Shown here: positions 3,001 through 14,519 of the stretch, one piece after another
How the letters are laid out: each line of letters opens with the position of its first letter
How positions within the stretch are numbered: position 1 is the stretch's first letter
Assembly (NCBI GenBank): GCA_021292105.1
Contig: CM037869.1
Span: forward strand, 49,163,234-49,227,233
Origin: Anadara kagoshimensis
Lineage: Eukaryota; Mollusca; Bivalvia; Arcoida; Arcidae
DNA: 64,000 nt
Direction: 5' to 3'
Made by a program: the position numbers and the translations under genes
Notes under the pieces: model-generated
Database searches by the model: none
Seen by the model: only the letters and a program-made list of their open reading frames with translations
What the model was told of the DNA's origin: nothing

Positions 3001-3364
3001 AATAAAATATCTTGTATCATATCCATTACACAAGCAAACTGCTGTTGTTGTAATGTTTTACATCACACCAGCAATCTTTTAGCTACAGGAGCAAATTTAT
3101 TAATCTGTACAGATTGATCTAAGAATATGTTTTTGTATACATGTATAAAAAGCTAAAGCGTGTGTGAAAAGCTAAAGTTTATTGAGCACTTGTCTGCAGC
3201 CATTACCGGGTTATTTCATTTCCTATTAAATCTCTTATAATTTTCTCAAACCTGTTTGTGAAAGCAACATTAAGAATACTGCCAAGTAATAACAGTATAT
3301 ACATTTACAATATGCCCTTTCATTTGGAATAGAAATTAAGAGAAAGCGGTCCTTTTATTCGGAG
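1..3364. other. Intergenic stretch without a recognisable gene
   Basis: AT-rich sequence with no frame that I can link to a protein family. The longest open frame (108 codons, 1730-2056) has no recognisable motif. It holds a run of 16 G at 817-832 and a foldback cluster at 2185-2600. It ends at the target duplication of the large transposon. Confidence 0.6.
2185..2600. repeat. Two adjacent inverted-repeat (foldback) elements
   Basis: Positions 2185-2211 are inverted relative to 2430-2458, both containing the core CCAATGATTTT or its complement. Immediately after, 2460-2506 is inverted relative to 2552-2600, sharing ACAATTATTGACTTTTGAT, with a loop of about 45 bases. The layout is that of MITEs. 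No transposase is present and I do not recognise the family. Confidence 0.6.
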
Positions 3365-3372
3365 AATGAAAC
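3365..3372. repeat. Left target-site duplication of the P-like transposon
   Basis: AATGAAAC abuts the left terminal repeat, and the same 8 bases follow the right terminal repeat at 12281-12288. P-superfamily transposons are known to duplicate 8 bp on insertion. Confidence 0.9.
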
Positions 3373-3673
3373 CACAGGCATTTGTTTCTATGAATGAAAA
3401 AAAAATCGAGAAATTACTATATAATAACACAAGGTGGTCATCTCTTTTTCAGGAGAATTACCACCAGTCCGCTTCAAACTGATTATTTCCATTTTTGCAC
3501 GATAAAAATTCAAACAAACCTGGTACCGTTCGATTCAAAACACTTTTATCTTTACGGTAATACACATTTTTGTATCCCTCGATAACCCCTCGCTTGAATA
3601 ATTGACATATTTCTCAGCTATTCCAACGACTACGACAAATATCACACTTCCACTATATTCACTTCCGGTCCGC
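3373..3673 (+). repeat. Left terminal inverted repeat (301 bp)
   Basis: It matches the reverse complement of 11980-12280 without a mismatch that I could find. Identity stops abruptly after GGTCCGC. A 63-codon open frame inside it occurs in both copies simply because they are identical, and it resembles no known protein. It probably contains the promoter of the transposase gene and transposase binding sites (inference). Confidence 0.9.
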
Positions 3674-3936
3674 AGTTAATATTATTTTGAGTAAATAAAA
3701 TGAGTTGTTTAAAAAATATAAACGTATAACAGTTTTAACATTTATATTTTTACACAAACAAAATAATACATATCTTAATTTAAAATCTGTGTTTTATTAT
3801 TTTGACTATATTTATGTTCTCAACATGTACGCCATGACAAGTCAAGAGGGTTTCCAAATAAGAACGATAACTCCCGATGAAATCAAATTGACATTTGGTG
3901 GGAAATTTAAAACGGACAATTTTGATACTTTTCAAA

Positions 3937-3974
3937 ATGAGTGAATGCAGAAATAATTTTGCAATTACTTTTTG
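3937..3974 (+). CDS. Candidate first coding exon of the P-like transposase
   Basis: An ATG at 3937 opens 12 codons plus two bases and stops at a consensus donor, TTG|GTAAGT (GT at 3975). Joined to the acceptor TTTGTAG|G at 5549-5550, the frame continues without interruption into the large transposase exon, giving a 795-residue protein. A 36-codon frame just upstream (ATG at 3834) ends in a stop that overlaps this start and could be an upstream ORF. No THAP zinc finger is encoded. The exon is inferred from splice signals and phase only. Confidence 0.4.
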
Positions 3975-4423
3975 GTAAGTATAATGAGAGAACTCTCAAT
4001 TTGTAATACAGCCAATTATATTGACGTTTTGGGGAAATATATAAAGGAGATAGTACCAAATGAGGCTTTCTATGGTACTAGTACCTAGTCAAATTTGTGT
4101 TTCTGTAAACATGGAGAATGCAGCATAGAGTTAAAAAAAAAATGACGGTACCTACATTTGTACGGGGGGGGGGGGGATCAGATTTATGGACTGGCACAAC
4201 ATTTATGCAGTAAAAAAAAAAAAAAGATTAAAAAAAAAATGTTCAAAGTTTATTATGTTCTATATGTTCATGAGAGTGCATATTTCTCACAGGCACTTGT
4301 TTCATGAATAAAAAAAATTATCGAGAAATTTTTGATTGTCAATATATATTTAGTTGATATGCAATTCTATGGCAGACCAAATGGGTTTTTATTCAAAAAA
4401 TGGAGTTATCTACATTTAAATAC

Positions 4424-5340
4424 AGATATCTTTATTTCAAATAAAGATATCTCTTTCAAATACAGATATCTACATTTTCCAAAAATTAATGCTTTAATAC
4501 AGATATCTCTAATTCAAATATAGATTTCTGTATTTGAAATAGAGATATCTATATTTCATGTTTATGCATTGATTAAATAGGGTAAGGTGTTTTACGCCTA
4601 CTCAAGAATATTTCACTTATACGAGGCGTCCAGTTTTCCATGGTGGAGGAAGACCCTGGTTTCACGAGGAGACGCCAGGTAGAACCACCGACCTGCGGTA
4701 AGGGAACTGAACAAACCCTTTCTCAGATAAGGCCGCGCTGTGCGGATTCGAACCTGCGACCTCATTGCTGAGAGACCACATGATTGTTGGCGCCCTGCCT
4801 AACCACTCGGCCACTGCGGCCTAATTGATTAAATAAAGTCAAATGCAGATATCTGTACTTATGTAGCTAAACGTTTACGTCGTAACAATTTCATTTTAGT
4901 GGTCAAAGTTTCATATTCAGAATTCTGTGAAAAAAAATTTAGTGATCCCCAATTGAAATCAACAAATAACTAATTTTTTAATGGGTCTCTAAAATGGTGG
5001 TGAGGGAGCAGTTATTAACCGACATCAAATATGAAACTAAAGTTAATAATCAAATATAAAAAGTCCCATCACCTTCTAAATAAAGATATCTGTATTTGAA
5101 ACAAAGATATCTTTTTTTGCATTTCAGTGTCACTAAATAGAGATAGCTGTATTTGAAATATATATATCTTCATTTGTAACACAGATATCTGTATTTGAAA
5201 TTCAAATATATTTATTTAGGGTTAGAATGTTCGTTTAATATAGATATCTATATTTGAAATAGATATATCTTTATTAAGTATATCAAATGTCGATATCTGT
5301 ATTATGAATGTAGATATCTGTATTTGAAATGCAGATATCT
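4424..5340. repeat. Array of the palindrome AGATATCT inside the transposase intron
   Basis: Exact AGATATCT occurs at 4424, 4445, 4464, 4501, 4543, 4847, 5084, 5105, 5183, 5242, 5312 and 5333, with several one-mismatch copies between them. Many copies extend to the longer palindrome AAATACAGATATCTGTATTT. A random 8-mer is expected about once per 65 kb. The array is split by the SINE at 4580-4823 and by about 220 bp of unrelated sequence. Confidence 0.85.
4580..4823 (-). mobile_element. tRNA-derived SINE with 12-bp target duplication
   Basis: Read on the minus strand it starts with a tRNA-like head containing an A box (TGGCCGAGTGG) and a B box (GGTTCGAATCC), as in a tRNA-Ser/Leu relative. Its tail resembles the other SINEs here (GTGAAATATTCTTGA). 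ATTGATTAAATA flanks it on both sides (4568-4579 and 4824-4835). It interrupts the AGATATCT array, so it inserted after the transposon was built. Confidence 0.88.
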
Positions 5341-5550
5341 CTATTTATTGAATGAAAATCCATTTGGCTTACCATAAAATTCAGTAGCAATATTTACAAA
5401 AAAGAGAAATAAAATTTAAAATAAGTTAAAATATAAGATTTTGCTCAAGAATGAAATGGCTCAATTTAAATAAAAAAGAAACTTTTTCTTAAGAATGAAA
5501 ATGGCTCCCTTTAAATACTTAATATAAGCAAAACATTGTTTACTTTGTAG

Positions 5551-7900
5551 GTTATCAGAGCATCTTGCATTTAATACTGGAAATACATCTCTTCATTTAA
5601 TTTATGAACAATTGAAAGAAAACAGTATAATCCAAAACAAGGATCATGAGCATATAAGTGTTAACCTTGTTGCACATTTAATATCTGTATTATTTAAAAA
5701 TGTACAAAAATCAACAGTCCACTGTCAGACCACAGGGAAACTTTTACAAAGTTACAAAAATATTTCAATACTACCATCTGTATGTAACAAAGAGATTCCA
5801 TTTGAAAGTGTGTACAAAATGTTACCTCCTAACTGGTTTATCTTTCATAAAGACTCCATCTCAGTTACATTTGGTCATTTATCTGAAGTTCGATTTAACG
5901 GACAACCATCAACACTTTATTTGAAACTTACTGCTTGCAATTCAGTGTCTGTTGAAATGGATCATACCCCTATAGACTTAAAAGAATATTATATTCCAGA
6001 CACTATCAGATATACCAACTCATCAATACCTGCCTTATTTCACTGTATGTCTATTTTACAACCATGCCAAGGCTATGAAATCCTTAAACAAGATGAACAT
6101 TCTTTAAGTGACAGTTCTAAATGTATTAAAGTTCAAATGCAATCAGGCAACAACATAACATATATACTGAAACACAAAGACTGTATACGGTGTTTGAAAC
6201 TGCAACTGAAGTCTTCTACCACCTGTAAAAAATGTACAGTATTTGTAAGAAATAGAAAAAAATTACAAAAAGTTGGTGAAAAGGAAAATAAAATACCCAA
6301 ACCTCTTTCAAAAGATGAAATTTTAATAAAACTTAAAATTTTAGCTCCTAATTTACATGACAACCAGCTGTCACTTATGCAATCACAAATAGTAGCATCA
6401 AATATTAACAATAAGAAAGGTATGCGCTGGGACAAAGAAATTATTTGTATGTCATTGAGTTTATACAACAGAAATCCTGCTGTTTACAGAGACCTAACAT
6501 TAAATAAATGGCTTCTCTTACCATCTGAACAACTACTTAAAGTTTACAAACATGCTGTTCAACAGAAGCCTGGAATTGTACCAAATATGATGCAGTGGAT
6601 GTACAATGAATCAATGAGACAAATTTCAATTCCTGAGGGTTATTATGGGGGTATTATACTGGATGAGATGGCAATCCAGGAGGATCTCCAGATTATACAC
6701 ACTGGTCAAAGTTCAGAATTATATGGGTTAACATTCACTGGAGGAGACCTTGGAAAAATGCAGGCATTAAATAATGGAGAAATAACTGACTGTCAATTAG
6801 CTAATCATGTTCAACAGTATGTTTTCACTGGTCTTACTGGATTCAGGTGGCCTTTTGCAAATTTTCCTAACACTCAAGCCCCACCAGCTGAAATATTTAT
6901 TACCACTTGGATGTGCATAGATGAATTGATTAAATGGGGGTTCAAACCCATATATTGCTGTATGGATGGGTCTGCCAACAACAGGGCTTTTTTAAAAATG
7001 CATTTTTCAAAATCTGATCCACTCTCAATGAAGATGGTTGCTAAATATTATAAAAATCCCACCAAGAAAATAGTATTCATGATGGACCCATGTCATCTTA
7101 TCAAAAAGATTAGAAACAGTGTATTAAGTAGTGGTTTCCTACAAAGTCACCAAAGACTGCTTACAGTGGATGGGCACTTTGTCATTTGGAAAATGTGGAT
7201 TGATGCCTACCAGTGGGATCGCTCTACAAACACTTTTCCAATCCATCATAAATTGAGTGATGAACACCTTTTCCCAACTAATGCTCAAAAAATGCGGAAC
7301 AAATTAGCATTTCAGGTCCTTGATAATGATATGCTGCATTTAATGAGATGTTACTCTTCAACCTTAAATGATACTTGTCAGGCTGAAATGATAGGAGTGC
7401 TAGAGTTTTTGAAATATACCAGTTTTTTTGTATCATTTTTTACTGACTCAAGGCCCATAAAAGACAGAAATGATCCAAGATTAAACAGCCTCACTGAGTC
7501 ATATAATTGGTTTAAGTCTTGGGAAAAACAGGAAATCAGTGACAATGAGCCCAACAAAAGATACAAGTCTTTGTTGACAATGGAAACAAGAGAAGACCTG
7601 GACTATATGTATTACGGATTTATTTCTCTTGTGGAAATATGTACAAATGAACTGAATATTGAACTGGTCCCCAGTAGAGTTAACAGTGACATAATCGAAA
7701 ATGTTTTCTGTCAAGAAAGATCACTTTATCATGGCGCCAATACTAATCCAAATTATAATGAATATAGAACTGGAATAAACAGTATAATATTGGGACAAAC
7801 TACAACATCCAGAAAGTCAAATGCTGGAGGTGAAACTGCAAAACCATTTGCTATTGGACCACCATCAAAGAAATTTAAACATACCAGTAAGTATAAATAA
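5551..7900 (+). CDS. P-element/THAP9-type transposase, main exon
   Basis: This encodes a DDE transposase expected to cut at the terminal inverted repeats and reinsert the element. The exon opens at acceptor TTTGTAG|G and stays open to a TAA at 7898; no ATG lies near its start, so an upstream exon is needed. Counting from the TTG at 5612 (762 codons), the catalytic motifs are LDEMAI with D351, CCMDGSANNR with D452 and DIIENVFCQ with E696. The P-family signature DPCHLIKKIRN follows D452 and opens the insertion domain between the second Asp and the Glu. Residues 191-208 hold a CxxC-x10-CxxC cluster that may bind zinc. No THAP domain is visible. The basic tail may be a nuclear localisation signal. 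The frame is intact. The family assignment is confident; activity is not shown. Confidence 0.9.
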
Positions 7901-8330
7901 ATAAATAATAAGTAAATAATAAATAAGTAGACAAAAAATAAAATAAAATAAAATAATTTTTTTTTCAAAAAGAAATAAAAATACATAAATTATTATGAAT
8001 AAAGTTGTTAATAAATCAGAAATTACAGTTGTTAATAAATCAGAAATTAGATAACTTGATAAATCAAATAAATAAATTTCATTTATTATTGGACCACCAT
8101 TAAAGGTCACTGTAAATTTAAACATACCATTAAGTATAAATTAATAAATAAAAATAAATAATAAATATATAATAAAATAAAATAAAATAAATAATGAATA
8201 AATGCAATAAAATAAAATAAAATATCAAAATAAATAAACCTTTTTTTTCAAAAAAAAAATAGAAATACAGAAATTATTATGAATCAAGTTGTTAATAAAT
8301 CAGAAATTAGATAATGAACAAATTTAATTT
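7856..8330 (+). repeat. Imperfect tandem duplication at the end of the transposase gene
   Basis: The unit beginning ATTGGACCACCAT at 7856 recurs at 8089. Both units continue into a block containing AAATTTAAACATACCA, an A/T-rich stretch and GTTGTTAATAAATCAG. The first unit includes the last 15 codons of the transposase; the second has lost the coding frame. The rest of 7901-8786 is very AT-rich and separates the two convergent stop codons. It may contain both polyadenylation sites. Confidence 0.75.
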
Positions 8331-8786
8331 ATTTATACAAGAATAAAATAATTGCACTTTCTTTTTATTTTTTATAATTATATTACCATTTGAAATAAAT
8401 AGTTATTCATTCATTATAATCTAAATGATAATTTAATTAATAATTAATTCTTTGATTAATAATTAAACAATTGAATAAATAGATTAGTCAGTTCATGAAT
8501 TAATTAATGAATTTGGTAATTATAAATTATATGTATTAGGAAATTTTTAAACATTTAATATGCTTTGTAAGTCTTTTAAGGCTTGATATGAAAGCTTTGA
8601 TGATATAGAGTATGTGTTATTTTATATGTATGTGCTGTGTCACTATATTTGATTATGAATGCAATTAATGAATTAGGTAATGAGTGCATTAGTCAATTTT
8701 AAACATAATTAGAATAATAATAATATTTATATCTTAGATTTGTGTTTTAGACATGCACACATTTTTGTAAACCAGTATATATGTAC

Positions 8787-11700
8787 CTATTTCAAGCACT
8801 CGGGACAGAACCAGTCACTCTCTTCTATTTCATTCCATTGAGTCTCTGATACTTGAATGCATTTTCTGTCATACCACCGGTCACAAAGGTCGCAAGCAAT
8901 CCAATCTTCACCATCTTTATATACAGAATTACATAACGGGCAAATAGTTTCAGTTTCATGTGTTTTCTTTGCAGATTTTTTCTTAGATGAATATTTTGAT
9001 GACCTTTTTTTCCTCTTTTTCAGATTTGCATTAGGTGGTTGTGAAACACTAACAGATGCCACAGAAGGACCAGCAGATGCCACAGAAGGTCCGGCCTTTG
9101 GTGAATCTGAAGTAGATGGCGGAGGTACTGGTATGGTATCAGGAATTGGATTTTCAGTTGTCAGATAATGAGGGAAATGCATACTGTCTGACTCGCGGAT
9201 AACAAGACATAGTTTTTTTTTTAATGAATCCTTTGCATCATTTTTAGAAAATTCAATTCCATATGCATTGACTAATTTTATCAAATCTGTCTTTGTAAAG
9301 TTTTTTAAAGATGACATTCCATGGTCAAATATGAAAGATTTTAACTTCAGATGTGTACTTAGTTTGTTGGCAGACTTGTCATTACAGAAAGCTTTGATGT
9401 TCAGTTCTGATGTAAGGGTAGACTTAACATCAACCCTTTTGCGTAATGCATCAGTTTTTATTTTACCAACTTTATGAATGAAATCTTTCCTAAACTGATT
9501 GTCAGCCACACGACAAAATCTCTGAATAATGTCAGAATAAAGTTCTCGCAAACAATGATCTGCACTATCTTTATCAATAAACAAATATTTATCAGACTGT
9601 TCAAAAGACTGAAACAAAATTCTCCATTTGTTGAAAAGAGTTTCATTTTCTAGGAGGACAGAATGACAGTGATTTAAAAATTCCGTTCCATATAATTTAA
9701 AATTGCTTTCAGTTTGAACAGAAAGTCTCTCTTTTTCAATCGCTTGAACAAAAAGAAAAGCAGAATCAATGATGTTGGTTAATCCTTGGGAGAGATTTTG
9801 TTTACGCTGTGTTTCGAAAAGGGATTCCTTATATTCCGAATTATTTTCCAAATCTGCATAACTTGTTGTTAACGAGTCTAACATTTTAACTTTCAAAAAG
9901 GCTTTCCCAACTGAAATTCTACTTTTTTTATTGTACATGTTGTTTTTTGCATGTTTCATATGATGATATCTACATTTCGCAACACAACGTCCAAATATAT
10001 ATCTTAACTTACCCTTAACAGATTCAGAAATTTCTTTTCCTGTTGTATCTTTTGACACAGTTAAATGTTCTGACTGTTTTTCTATTACTAAAGACTTCAC
10101 TTTATCAAAAATGTTACTACAGATTTCATAATAGATATCTGAGGGCTCACCATCAGATATCAAGTGAACAAGAGCAGTGTATTCTGCAGATACAGAAAAG
10201 TTGTATAGTTCTGTACAGAATGCTGTCCATATCTTTGAATCTGTTGACACTGTTTTAACATTTCCACATGTTGCTTGAAAAATATCACTGAATTTGTGAA
10301 AAAGTTTATTTGAAAAAGTTTCCACAGTATTGATTCTGTTTTCAGTTAATGATTTAAAATAAGAACTTACCAGTTTTTCTCTTGGCGAAACTTTCTCTCC
10401 AGAAAAAATACTACAGATTTCATTCATGTTAATGACTTTATGAACCTGTTCCTCTGGATCAAGAACATCAGAATCACTACTCATCAAAAAATCAATTTCT
10501 TCAATTTCTGTGTCACTAAAATCAGATAATTCCTCCCCCTCCTCAAAGATTGAAATTGCAGGATGTGCTTTCTCTTCAGTCTGACTGGGAACAAAGTCAA
10601 TTTTGCAACAAGTTGTGTCTTGAAAAAAATTCTTATGGCACTTTACACAGTCATCATAAAAGTCATATAAAATTTTCTCGTGTTTTATGACACAAGATGG
10701 ATTAAAGCCCATTATACGTAGACCCTTTTTTTCTGTTGCCCGACCTATTGCCACGCCAAACTGACCAGCTGCAAATATGCAACTGGCATCAACTTCTAAC
10801 CTACTTAATGTCAACCCCTGAGACTTATGGATTGTAATGGCAAATGCCAAACACAGAGGCAATTGTCTACGTGTTGCTACAACTTTATTGTCAGTGGTAC
10901 TGAAGACAGTAAATGTTTCCTTTCTCAACTCTGTGTATAAAGTACTTTCAAAGTTTTTATTTTGGAAGTTTACACCAACAGTTTTATTAGTTTTGTCAAT
11001 TTTCACCACAGTACCTCTTAACCCATTGACAAGTTTGTCAGATAAATTTTTTAGCAGTAGAATAGAACAGCCAATCTTAAGGTGCAGTGTTTTAGGAACA
11101 GGCATTCTCTCAAGTTTGTTTGTATCACCCTCGTCAACTGAATGAAACACATGGTCATCACCTTCAATTTCCATTAATTTACAAGCATTAAAAATAAAAC
11201 AATCAAAATTCCGTGCACATAGATGGATAGGTTCCTCGCCAGGTGGTAAAGGACGACTCAAGCGCTTAATTAATTAAGAGTGTCATCAGGTAAATTTCCT
11301 CTCGACACATCATTCACAGCCTTAATAAAGTCTGGCTGATTTTGACGCATGACATCAGTTAATACAAATTTATGAATAAAATAGGTTTTAAAAATATCCG
11401 AGACAAAACAATATTCTCCTGGGTCATCCTTTAGGATGTCAGGAACTGGGGCTAACTGAAAAAAATCACCAACCCCCAGTACCTGAATTCCCCCAAATAT
11501 TTTCTCACTTTTTCTTGTTTTCCTGCAAATATATTCTAATTGTTCGAATAAGCGTTTTGACAACATAGAAATTTCATCAATGATTAAGCAGTCTGTTGTT
11601 AAAATATTGTTCTTATATATTAAAAAATGTTCATTGTTAGAAATTTTGTCCAGTAAATTTTCGTTCGAATATCTACCATCGCCAATACCACACCACGAAT

Positions 11701-11884
11701 GAACAGTTTGTCCCCCTATATTAAGGGATGCTATCCCTGTAGTGGCTGTAAGCCTTACATTTATACACTTTTCTTTAAGTTTACGGGCAATTTCTTTACA
11801 AACAAAACTCTTTCCAGTGCCACTCTGGCCTAAAATTAACAAGGAATGGCCATTTACCGCCTTTTGAACAATATCGTCTTGCAT
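8787..11884 (-). CDS. Pif1-family DNA helicase with C-terminal PHD finger (one frameshift)
   Basis: A superfamily 1 helicase of about 1,029 residues, encoded without introns and broken once near 11266-11277. The first part (11884-11270, 204 aa) has Walker A GQSGTGKS (19-26), Walker B IIDE (103-104), GVGDFFQLAPV (137-147) and TDVMRQ. The second part (from 11261, 824 codons) has AITIHKSQGLTL (about 138-151) and VAIGRAT, the last helicase motifs. About 450 unassigned residues follow, then a SAP-like stretch (about 655-690), a Ser/Pro-rich linker, a Lys-rich segment and a PHD finger (774-822). The start ATG at 11884 lies 96 bp inside the right terminal repeat, with an in-frame stop just upstream. 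It probably unwinds or repairs transposition intermediates (inference). Confidence 0.88.
11261..11277 (-). other. Frameshift point in the helicase gene
   Basis: The upstream frame ends at a TAA (11270-11272) inside TTAATTAATTAA. The downstream frame is open from the same repeat. One extra T would restore continuity at the expected position between helicase motifs IV and V. No classical slippery heptamer is visible. It may be a genuine lesion or a consensus error. Confidence 0.8.
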
Positions 11885-11979
11885 TCTTGTCGTTTTACCT
11901 GTTTTACAATTTCTACTTTCGATTTGTGATTCTATTTATTCACCGACCAATCAAATATGGTCATCATATTCCCTGCGCA

Positions 11980-12280
11980 GCGGACCGGAAGTGAATATAG
12001 TGGAAGTGTGATATTTGTCGTAGTCGTTGGAATAGCTGAGAAATATGTCAATTATTCAAGCGAGGGGTTATCGAGGGATACAAAAATGTGTATTACCGTA
12101 AAGATAAAAGTGTTTTGAATCGAACGGTACCAGGTTTGTTTGAATTTTTATCGTGCAAAAATGGAAATAATCAGTTTGAAGCGGACTGGTGGTAATTCTC
12201 CTGAAAAAGAGATGACCACCTTGTGTTATTATATAGTAATTTCTCGATTTTTTTTTCATTCATAGAAACAAATGCCTGTG
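11980..12280 (-). repeat. Right terminal inverted repeat (301 bp)
   Basis: Reverse complement of 3373-3673. Its inner edge is 96 bp from the helicase start codon, so the same repeat sequence probably drives both element genes. Confidence 0.9.
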
Positions 12281-12288
12281 AATGAAAC
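12281..12288. repeat. Right target-site duplication of the P-like transposon
   Basis: AATGAAAC, identical to 3365-3372. Confidence 0.9.
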
Positions 12289-14519
12289 GTCGGAAATTGG
12301 CTAACTTGCTAACACAGCAAAATGTAAAATTAATTCTCAGCCTCTTTTGATGACCAAATTACCCGTTTATCTAGGTTGACATCGTTAAAATGAAATCGGT
12401 ACAATCAAACTTTACGTCATAAAATCGTCTGAAATGTTTTGGATTACGATTAAATTAAAATTTTCATATTTTCTCACCTTTTTAAAAATGTTTATGAAAA
12501 TCACTTGATGTTTATGAATTGTACTTCCTTGTTTTGTTCTGCGCATGACCGTCTGAGTGAAAAGTAAATACATAACTCGAAAAATGGATCAACCCCAAAT
12601 CTGTCTGATTTACGAAGGCTTGATCTACACAGTCTCTGTTTTTGTGTTTACCATAGGTGGTCTTTAAAATAAATTTTGCCCAAGTGGATGTAATGACAGT
12701 GGTGAGCCCATAGAGGCTGGAAATCCTAACAACAACAACAATGGCAGGTTTGATTATTTAAAGTATTTTGAATTCACGGGGAAAAATCCGTTCATATCTT
12801 TTTATCGCCAATGAGCACCTACTAAATATTGTGATTTCCTGGAACGACTAGGCTCAAGTGAGTTGACAATACATGAATTTTCTTTCATTTTTTGATTTGA
12901 TTTTCTATGAACTTTTGACGATATTCACTGTCATGATCTGACTGGCCAGTACAGTGAAACATAACTTGAGTTTTAACGTTTGACCGGGTAAGCTTGCCAA
13001 ACAATGAACCGTTACAACTCATCCATAACTTGAAGATATTTATAAACCTATTATTATTATTTTTGTTGTATTCTAAATGTACCCAGCCGATATGTTAGTG
13101 TACTTAATGATAAATATGGGAAAACGGCATCACAATGACATTGTAATCATTTTGAATCATGAATTTCAATTAAATATTTTTGAACAAACTTGATTAAAAA
13201 TTAAAATAAAGTTGATCAATCGAAAGGCACATGATTCTTATCATAATAGAGGATACGGGTGTGATGTTTTATGAATACCGTAAATGTTATGGCTGACGTA
13301 CGTTTTCCTCTCAGTGTCCTTACTCTCCGGGGCAACCGGTCTCACTTCCCTATTAGAAGTTCACGCGTTTTGACTTAATTTAGCCAGTTTGAAAAGTTTT
13401 TACTTTTGTCAGTTTTGGATAATGTTCTTGGACATGGTTTGGTATTTTTATCTTCAAAATTATAATAAAATTTAAAAAATACCCATAAGTATATAAAAAA
13501 AGAGTACTCTTTTTATATACTTATAGGTATTTTTTAAAATTTTATTATGAAACTGGCCCCTGTGATGGTTAACCATGGCTTGTTACTTCACTGACATTCT
13601 AAGGACCCCATCGACCCAAGTAAAGATTAGAAATATACTGTTTTTATATATCAACTCTTTTGCGTAACAAACTTCATTCACGATGTCTTGCTTATCATTC
13701 TTCATAAAAATAGTGCTATAAATATTAAAACAGTATTGTATAACTCGTGTGTATTTTTATTAGATCTATGGTAGGGCCATGCCAAACTTCGAGTGATTTT
13801 TTTTAATTTAGAATTTTAAAAAATCATAAATTCAGTCAATTCAAATCGATTTCCTCCTGTCCTTAAACCCCACATGACAAGTTTGAAAAATAAAGTTGGT
13901 TATTTGCGGGTTTAGTTGGTATGGCTAATGGCCTATAACTATCACATCTGGCTCGCGTATTTTTAGGTTGCAAATAAATCATTGACAATCTTGGTAATAA
14001 ACAGTCTAATTTTCATAAAACGTCATATAACTCAAAATTCCCTAGCCTCTCTGTACTAGCAGACTAGAATGATCTTTTGATTGGTCAAGTTTATTTTTGT
14101 TTTTGTTCACGGTCTTCTATAATCATTTTGACGTTAGAGGGCGTCATTAAGTGTGTAAATTAAAATTCAACAATTTGAATTTTAAAGTCATAAAATACTT
14201 TAACAAAAATCAATAAAAGAAAATCATGATTTTGTAATCATTAAAAAAATAGGCACTGGATTTCAGTAATCACTGGTAATGCCTACTTTAATCCCGGCCC
14301 GTTAATATTTTCCTATCAAGTTAAAGTTGAATGTTTTTCAGCCAAAATAGTGTGAATTTATTATCTCTTAGAATAATATTTACCTGTCTTTTTATATTTT
14401 CCACAAAATTAAAAAAGAAGATCGAGAAACTTTGTTGCATTCATTTAGCGAGTCAGTCCTGTTCCGGGTTTCAGAGTTATTCCCAGATCCATTTCAGGTA
14501 TTAGTCAGCGATAAAGAAA
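12289..14519. other. Intergenic and 5' region upstream of U2SURP
   Basis: No gene is recognisable. It contains the hairpin at 13461-13549. The last 100 bp or so should be the U2SURP 5' UTR and core promoter, but I see no convincing TATA box or initiator. Confidence 0.55.
13461..13549. repeat. Near-perfect hairpin (MITE-like)
   Basis: Arms of about 39 bp (13461-13499 and 13511-13549) are complementary except at single positions, around the centre AGAGTACTCT. Both arms contain AAAAAATACC or its complement. Confidence 0.75.

Follow-up and report, generated by a model that had tools for sequence, protein, structure and literature searches.

Why would a cut-and-paste transposon carry a helicase gene of its own? 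The question is raised by a mobile element at positions 3373 to 12280 of a 64,000-nucleotide stretch of DNA of the bivalve Anadara kagoshimensis (assembly GCA_021292105.1, contig CM037869.1, positions 49,163,234 to 49,227,233 of the forward strand; hereafter the window). It is a P-superfamily transposon of the cut-and-paste kind with two genes, one for a transposase and one for a Pif1 helicase with a PHD finger, which converge between the same inverted repeats.

The element, its genes and its copies

The boundaries given in a preliminary description of the window, made from the sequence alone, proved exact, and so did the perfect terminal inverted repeats (TIRs) and the perfect 8-bp target-site duplication reported there. 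The left TIR (3373 to 3673, plus strand, beginning CACAGGCATTTG) lies upstream of the transposase gene and the right TIR (11980 to 12280, minus strand) some 95 bp ahead of the start codon of the helicase gene; a repeat search found the two arms to be 301 nucleotides long and 100% complementary, and the duplication AATGAAAC stands on both sides (3365 to 3372 and 12281 to 12288, by sequence match). When the genome (1.115 Gb in 36 contigs) was searched with the 301-bp repeat, all 40 hits scored (the best 40 of 136 candidates) were identical to it over 301 bases. Five further full-length copies (L031 to L035) were recovered, which measure 8,906 to 8,910 bp, are 99.888 to 99.989% identical to the window copy and have 100% identical 301-bp TIRs and their own perfect 8-bp duplication, the latter being perfect in 6 of 6 full-length copies. 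Since five other copies of about 8.9 kb have identical TIRs and their own duplications, a chance arrangement is ruled out; the element is a recently active mobile unit, and both genes move as one. In the copy on C1 (L035) eight changes and a one-base insert fall within 19 bp (window-equivalent 9675 to 9693), as if this segment had been patched by repair.

The transposase open reading frame (ORF; 5528 to 7900, plus strand) has 790 codons from stop to stop, and its main exon (5551 to 7900) encodes a P-type RNase H-like core with an inserted GTP-binding domain. A small first exon (3937 to 3974, plus strand, MSECRNNFAITF-, donor GT at 3975), predicted from good splice signals and phase, is likely joined to it and would give a protein of 795 amino acids. 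Candidates for the D-D-E residues are D379, D480 (invariant across 11 aligned sequences) and E724 (which falls where the ORF aligns with the C-terminal portion of 6p5a); we take these putative catalytic residues to be equivalent to those of the fly transposase. A THAP domain was matched neither in the ORF nor in any of 29 proteins (29/29 negative), and inspection by eye of all three plus-strand reading frames of 3674 to 5560 showed none, although small or missing upstream exons could hide one. Of the earlier label "P/THAP9-type transposase" the P type thus stands, on the strength of the RNase H-like core, but "THAP9-type" was too strong. Four cysteines N-terminal to the core (C180, C219, C233 and C236) are invariant in the 11 aligned sequences, including the THAP-bearing P protein P0151, and may form a zinc site.

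The helicase gene (8787 to 11884, minus strand, likely start codon at 11884 to 11882), delimited by ORF, protein and genome searches, belongs to the Pif1 family (SF1B): the PIF1 ATPase core PF05970 (11288 to 11866, Pfam E 1.5e-33, Walker A GQSGTGKS, Walker B IDEISML), the 2B domain PF21530 (11001 to 11102, E 1.6e-8) and the motor motifs are all present, and a PHD finger PF00628 (8796 to 8942, E 3.6e-7, above cut-off) forms the C-terminus, all on the minus strand. Walker A is kept in 16 of the 17 aligned rows that cover it (P0007 is without it), and a fold search gave Candida, human and yeast Pif1 as top matches. The middle helical region (approximately residues 487 to 910 of P0001) had no fold match of its own among the matches listed, which the motor dominates, and was not searched separately. 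In the window copy the frame is split into two pieces (11935 to 11270 and 11273 to 8787, minus strand) because of a one-base deletion near 11271 that is absent from the five other full-length copies; elsewhere a frame of 1049 codons stop to stop is unbroken at at least nine loci (best 44 of 410 candidates scored). The intact transposase and the convergent Pif1 helicase of the preliminary description are both present, but the helicase of this particular copy is frame-broken.

How regularly the two genes occur together was examined by genome searches with the transposase protein and with helicase DNA. Fifteen loci match the transposase protein over 790/790 residues at 100% and free of stops (best 57 of 120 candidates scored), and at 15/15 of them a stretch of helicase DNA (from a search in which all 38 candidates were scored) lies 2,799 to 2,804 bp from the transposase, coordinates being matched by hand. 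Both genes are unbroken at seven of the 15; the remaining eight, to which the window copy belongs, have a broken or rearranged helicase. Two of the 15 (C11:37824271 and C11:37834668) form, by their coordinates, an inverted and partly overlapping pair and not two separate regular elements. Faster decay of the helicase than of the transposase was not significant among the 19 copies with most of both genes (8 versus 2 discordant; p 0.11, or 0.20 when adjusted for length). The copies at C17:27160133 and C12:23786979 apparently have a transposase frame break in common, which suggests that transposase-dead copies moved in trans.

Twelve shorter copies of 1.7 to 3.6 kb have both termini, with internal stretches missing (counted from L036 to L050, leaving out L042, a piece of an array on C5, and L043 and L044, which are one locus with a single element end). 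Some retain part of one gene, for instance the transposase start in L036 and most of the helicase in L037. The 8-bp duplication is perfect in 10 of the 12, L040 and L049 being without matching 8-mers, and the 13 deletion junctions have 1 to 5 bp of shared sequence (11 junctions), 11 bp of it (one) or a 3-base insert (one). These short copies are losses from one element and not pointers to a helicase-free founder. On C5 (48829286-48862624; L014 to L025, L041 and L042) six copies of a 1.9-kb deletion derivative follow one another at a spacing of about 6.29 kb; they appear to be arrayed in tandem, the derivative being part of the repeated unit.

The pair in older and divergent families

Beyond the family of the window element (family 1), five further helicase loci (L051 to L055) were found at 65-67% DNA identity, and a convergent, diverged P transposase adjoins the helicase in 5/5. 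They represent one older, decayed family and are not independent (the common flanks of L051/L054 and of L052/L053 mark these as segmental duplicates); the end of this family reads CACAGGCACTTG at three of the five. A search with this end (best 40 of 102 candidates scored) placed inverted ends outside both genes at C14:47524465-47531536, C14:49373296-49380340 and C13:10068902-10076983, so that the same two genes are enclosed by the termini of a second family as well. At the second of these loci the outer 75 bases of the right end are unmatched, at the third one end is 75% identical, and the older-family loci on C1 and C3 yielded just the end on the helicase side.

The same association was observed at greater distance. 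Searches with two helicase relatives (P0010, best 44 of 510; P0031, best 52 of 462) and a transposase relative (P0148, best 52 of 90), with hits merged by hand and family 1 excluded, gave 19 loci for the transposase and 25 for the helicase, all of them divergent. A convergent helicase lies at most 5 kb from 12 of the 19 transposase loci, and at 13 kb from one more, where random placement would be expected to pair about 0.001 of the 19; as the loci are not all independent (there are two duplicate pairs, and two C17 loci 9.4 kb apart may be a tandem), the calculated probability is not to be read literally. For instance, C4:21372870 is paired with C4:21374699, where the helicase has 34% identity and an open frame of 1,047 codons. 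The transposase-helicase pair is old and has been kept together across diverged families.

Codon comparisons of family 1 with each of L051 to L055 gave synonymous differences (pS) near saturation (0.73-0.81) and nonsynonymous differences of 0.17-0.27 for the transposase and 0.28-0.38 for the helicase, values biased downwards by the choice of codons through protein alignment and upwards by the decayed copies. Judged from these differences, both proteins seem to have been kept by purifying selection over most of their divergence. The correlation between transposase and helicase distance matrices (r 0.71, with 144 of 5,040 permutations as high) was set aside and not used as evidence, because its points are not independent (segmental duplicates, and L051 to L055 forming one family). 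In Mytilus edulis a helicase (P0008) and a transposase (P0124) both lie on contigs of 3,052,682 bases, which suggests linkage; coincidences of contig size in Pinctada and Tegillarca (45-47 million bases) are little informative, and scans of IMG/VR with both proteins found no relatives.

It is extremely improbable that a Pif1 gene or a piece of a Helitron landed once in a P element and has hitch-hiked there ever since. Such an origin could be read from the use of Pif1 helicases as Helitron motors (a Helitron stands at rank 38 of the fold matches), from the broken or rearranged helicase at 8/15 loci with an unbroken transposase and from the six divergent transposase loci with no detected helicase, but it is opposed by the recurrence of this convergent pair in an older family that has TIRs of its own, by the pairing at 12/19 divergent loci, by the purifying selection on the helicase and by the lack of a Rep domain among the Pfam matches listed. 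We rejected chance nesting on the presence of the pair at all 15 intact loci, at divergent loci and in the second family. We encountered no helicase flanked by termini separate from those of the element, though the 12 helicase loci without a detected transposase were not examined for termini. The earlier proposal of a single two-gene P element, as opposed to a nested insertion, is supported, the short copies being internal deletions and the second family enclosing the pair. Its further idea, that the helicase processes or repairs transposition intermediates and may be steered by the PHD finger, is a hypothesis.

Possible roles of the helicase

P elements are textbook cut-and-paste transposons that leave repair to the host. 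We put a probability of roughly 0.45 on the helicase being a gap-repair helper that restores the donor site. The transposase would cut the element out and leave a double-strand gap, the Pif1 protein together with host Pol delta and PCNA would push D-loop (bubble) synthesis across the 8.9-kb sister-chromatid template, and the restored donor copy would turn excision into a net gain; where synthesis aborted, the ends would be joined at microhomologies and short, internally deleted copies would result. Since the same 301-bp repeat stands upstream of both start codons, it probably drives both genes and could serve them as a shared promoter. Copying 8.9 kb is a longer task than copying the 2.9 kb of the fly element, so that a Pif1 of its own would be worth having. 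In the passages of PMC8951532 that bear on this, the gap left by fly P excision is filled with the sister as template, two D-loops converging on one another; flies with helicase mutations have shorter tracts and more aborted repair, and (citing Kocak 2019) efficient repair of a 14-kb P-element gap depends on PIF1 in the absence of POL32. Bubble synthesis is driven by Pif1 together with Pol delta according to a passage of PMC8998199.

Several points weigh against the gap-repair reading. With an unbroken helicase at just 7/15 intact-transposase loci, the window copy not among them, the helicase is dispensable in cis, and internal deletions are common despite its presence. The closure of aborted repair at microhomologies is drawn from general background and not from the passages cited for fly repair. 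No helicase was detected at 6/19 divergent transposase loci, nor a transposase at 12/25 divergent helicase loci, which is no proof of absence, since searches with helicase proteins covered the best 44-52 of 410-510 candidates and the resulting lists are incomplete. One of the six, C16:10120133, has 803 open codons, and the 1,001 bases beside it hold no clear helicase match (best tblastn E 0.015). Next to this frame (L056, C16:10118700-10119700) we observed a 280-nt perfect inverted repeat with an 86-nt pair outside it.

The helicase might instead be a partner in the transpososome, opening or remodelling the DNA of the repeats, taking apart the strand-transfer complex or, by means of its PHD finger, guiding cleavage or integration to chromatin, much as RAG2-like proteins might do in the convergent RAG1L/RAG2L transposons; we consider this unlikely. 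The convergent layout and the C-terminal PHD on the partner recall these RAGL elements (PMC7204232, in the part seen), fly P cleavage leaves unusual 17-nt single-stranded ends (a passage of PMC7776569), and the PHD is complete in 17 of 31 aligned proteins. The window protein keeps the seven cysteines of C4HC3 and has Asp at the usual His ligand position, where the 17 complete members have Asp (12), Asn (2) or His (3), so counted by eye the histidine is replaced in 14/17, which speaks against this role, as do the complete Pif1 motor and the lack of a kelch domain among the Pfam matches listed. Moreover, the passages of PMC7776569 name transposase and GTP for fly P transposition in vitro and a helicase (the Bloom homologue) in repair only. 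A service of another kind, such as replication through an AT-rich and repeat-rich element or opposition to host repair or silencing, is in our view quite unlikely: in its favour are the conservation of the helicase gene under selection, the many AT repeats of the element, some of them inverted, and the general part of Pif1 proteins as helpers of replication (PMC8998199, in the passage concerned), but the element bears no specific sign of it.

Returning to gap repair, we tentatively entertain, at somewhat less than even odds, an animal P lineage with a gap-repair motor of its own, in which Pif1-PHD makes cut-and-paste transposition copy-restoring through long sister-templated synthesis. Such an element would be independent of the host helicases that limit copy recovery, which would also explain a P element three times the length of the fly one. 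That selection has maintained a dedicated helicase in this lineage suggests that a transposon may bring along its own means of donor-site repair. The old question of how cut-and-paste elements gain copies becomes testable, and directly so, because Drosophila P-element gap-repair assays with helicase mutants already exist (PMC8951532, in the part seen). Some bivalve genes annotated as PIF1 may be transposon genes.

Known relatives and contents of the intron

Like the element, Helitrons and Helentrons encode a Pif1-family helicase (a Helitron structure is among the fold matches listed). Helitrons, however, transpose by rolling-circle replication, have their helicase fused to a Rep nuclease, and show neither TIRs nor target duplications; membership was rejected on the TIRs and 8-bp duplications and on the lack of a Rep domain among the Pfam matches listed (25 of 45 families in one scan).

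The closest known elements are those of the P superfamily. The P elements of Drosophila and the THAP9-type ones of zebrafish and human have in common with the present element a P-fold RNase H-like transposase, inverted repeats, 8-bp duplications and internally deleted copies (0.5-2.8 kb in the fly), according to passages of PMC7776569. The fly element measures 2.9 kb, with 31-bp TIRs, a THAP domain and one gene giving two proteins (same source), and the earlier statement that P elements encode a single protein is thus loose, two being made from the one fly gene by splicing. The zebrafish element has 13-bp TIRs and a THAP domain, whereas the present one has 8.9 kb, 301-bp TIRs, no THAP domain found and a second gene, for the Pif1-PHD helicase. 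Galileo of Drosophila is another cut-and-paste P-superfamily element with long TIRs, but it makes 7-bp target duplications, and the "helicase" in the passages of PMC2775673 is an unrelated DEAD-like host gene; in the passages of two Galileo papers that use the word "helicase", it means host genes.

Helicases within DDE transposons are already known, in the passages of PMC9587614 (KolobokH, with a RecQ helicase) and PMC10045372 (AcademH, with 9- or 10-bp target duplications). These are likewise DDE-type cut-and-paste elements with a helicase besides the transposase, but they belong to other transposase superfamilies, and the same passages mention no Pif1-PHD protein. RAGL elements, which also occur in bivalves, have two convergent genes between TIRs and a C-terminal PHD on the partner, but a RAG1/Transib-type transposase, 5-bp duplications and a kelch-PHD partner without a helicase motor (PMC7204232, in the part seen); membership, which calls for a RAG1-like core with a kelch-PHD partner and a 5-bp duplication, was rejected. 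Among the titles and abstract openings listed from the open-access literature none describes a P-superfamily element with a helicase, and a Repbase or Dfam entry may exist.

The predicted intron of the transposase gene holds several minor features. At 4288 to 4330 (plus strand) lies a 43-bp internal copy of the terminus, 88.6% identical to the TIR (E 0.004 within the window), which is perhaps the relic of a nested derivative; its first bases are closer to the end of the older family (CACAGGCACTTG) than to the element's own TIR. A SINE-like insert occupies 4567 to 4822 (minus strand) and contains GTTCGAATCC, spotted by eye, which we take to be a tRNA-promoter-like box; nothing was found by an ARAGORN tRNA scan of 4500 to 4950 or an Rfam scan of 3300 to 12400. 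Between 4411 and 5368 lies an AT-rich cluster of repeats (families D1 and I2 to I4) centred on GATATC, which run in either orientation and in many cases at intervals of about 21 bp, and the same cluster is present in the five full-length copies fetched from elsewhere in the genome.

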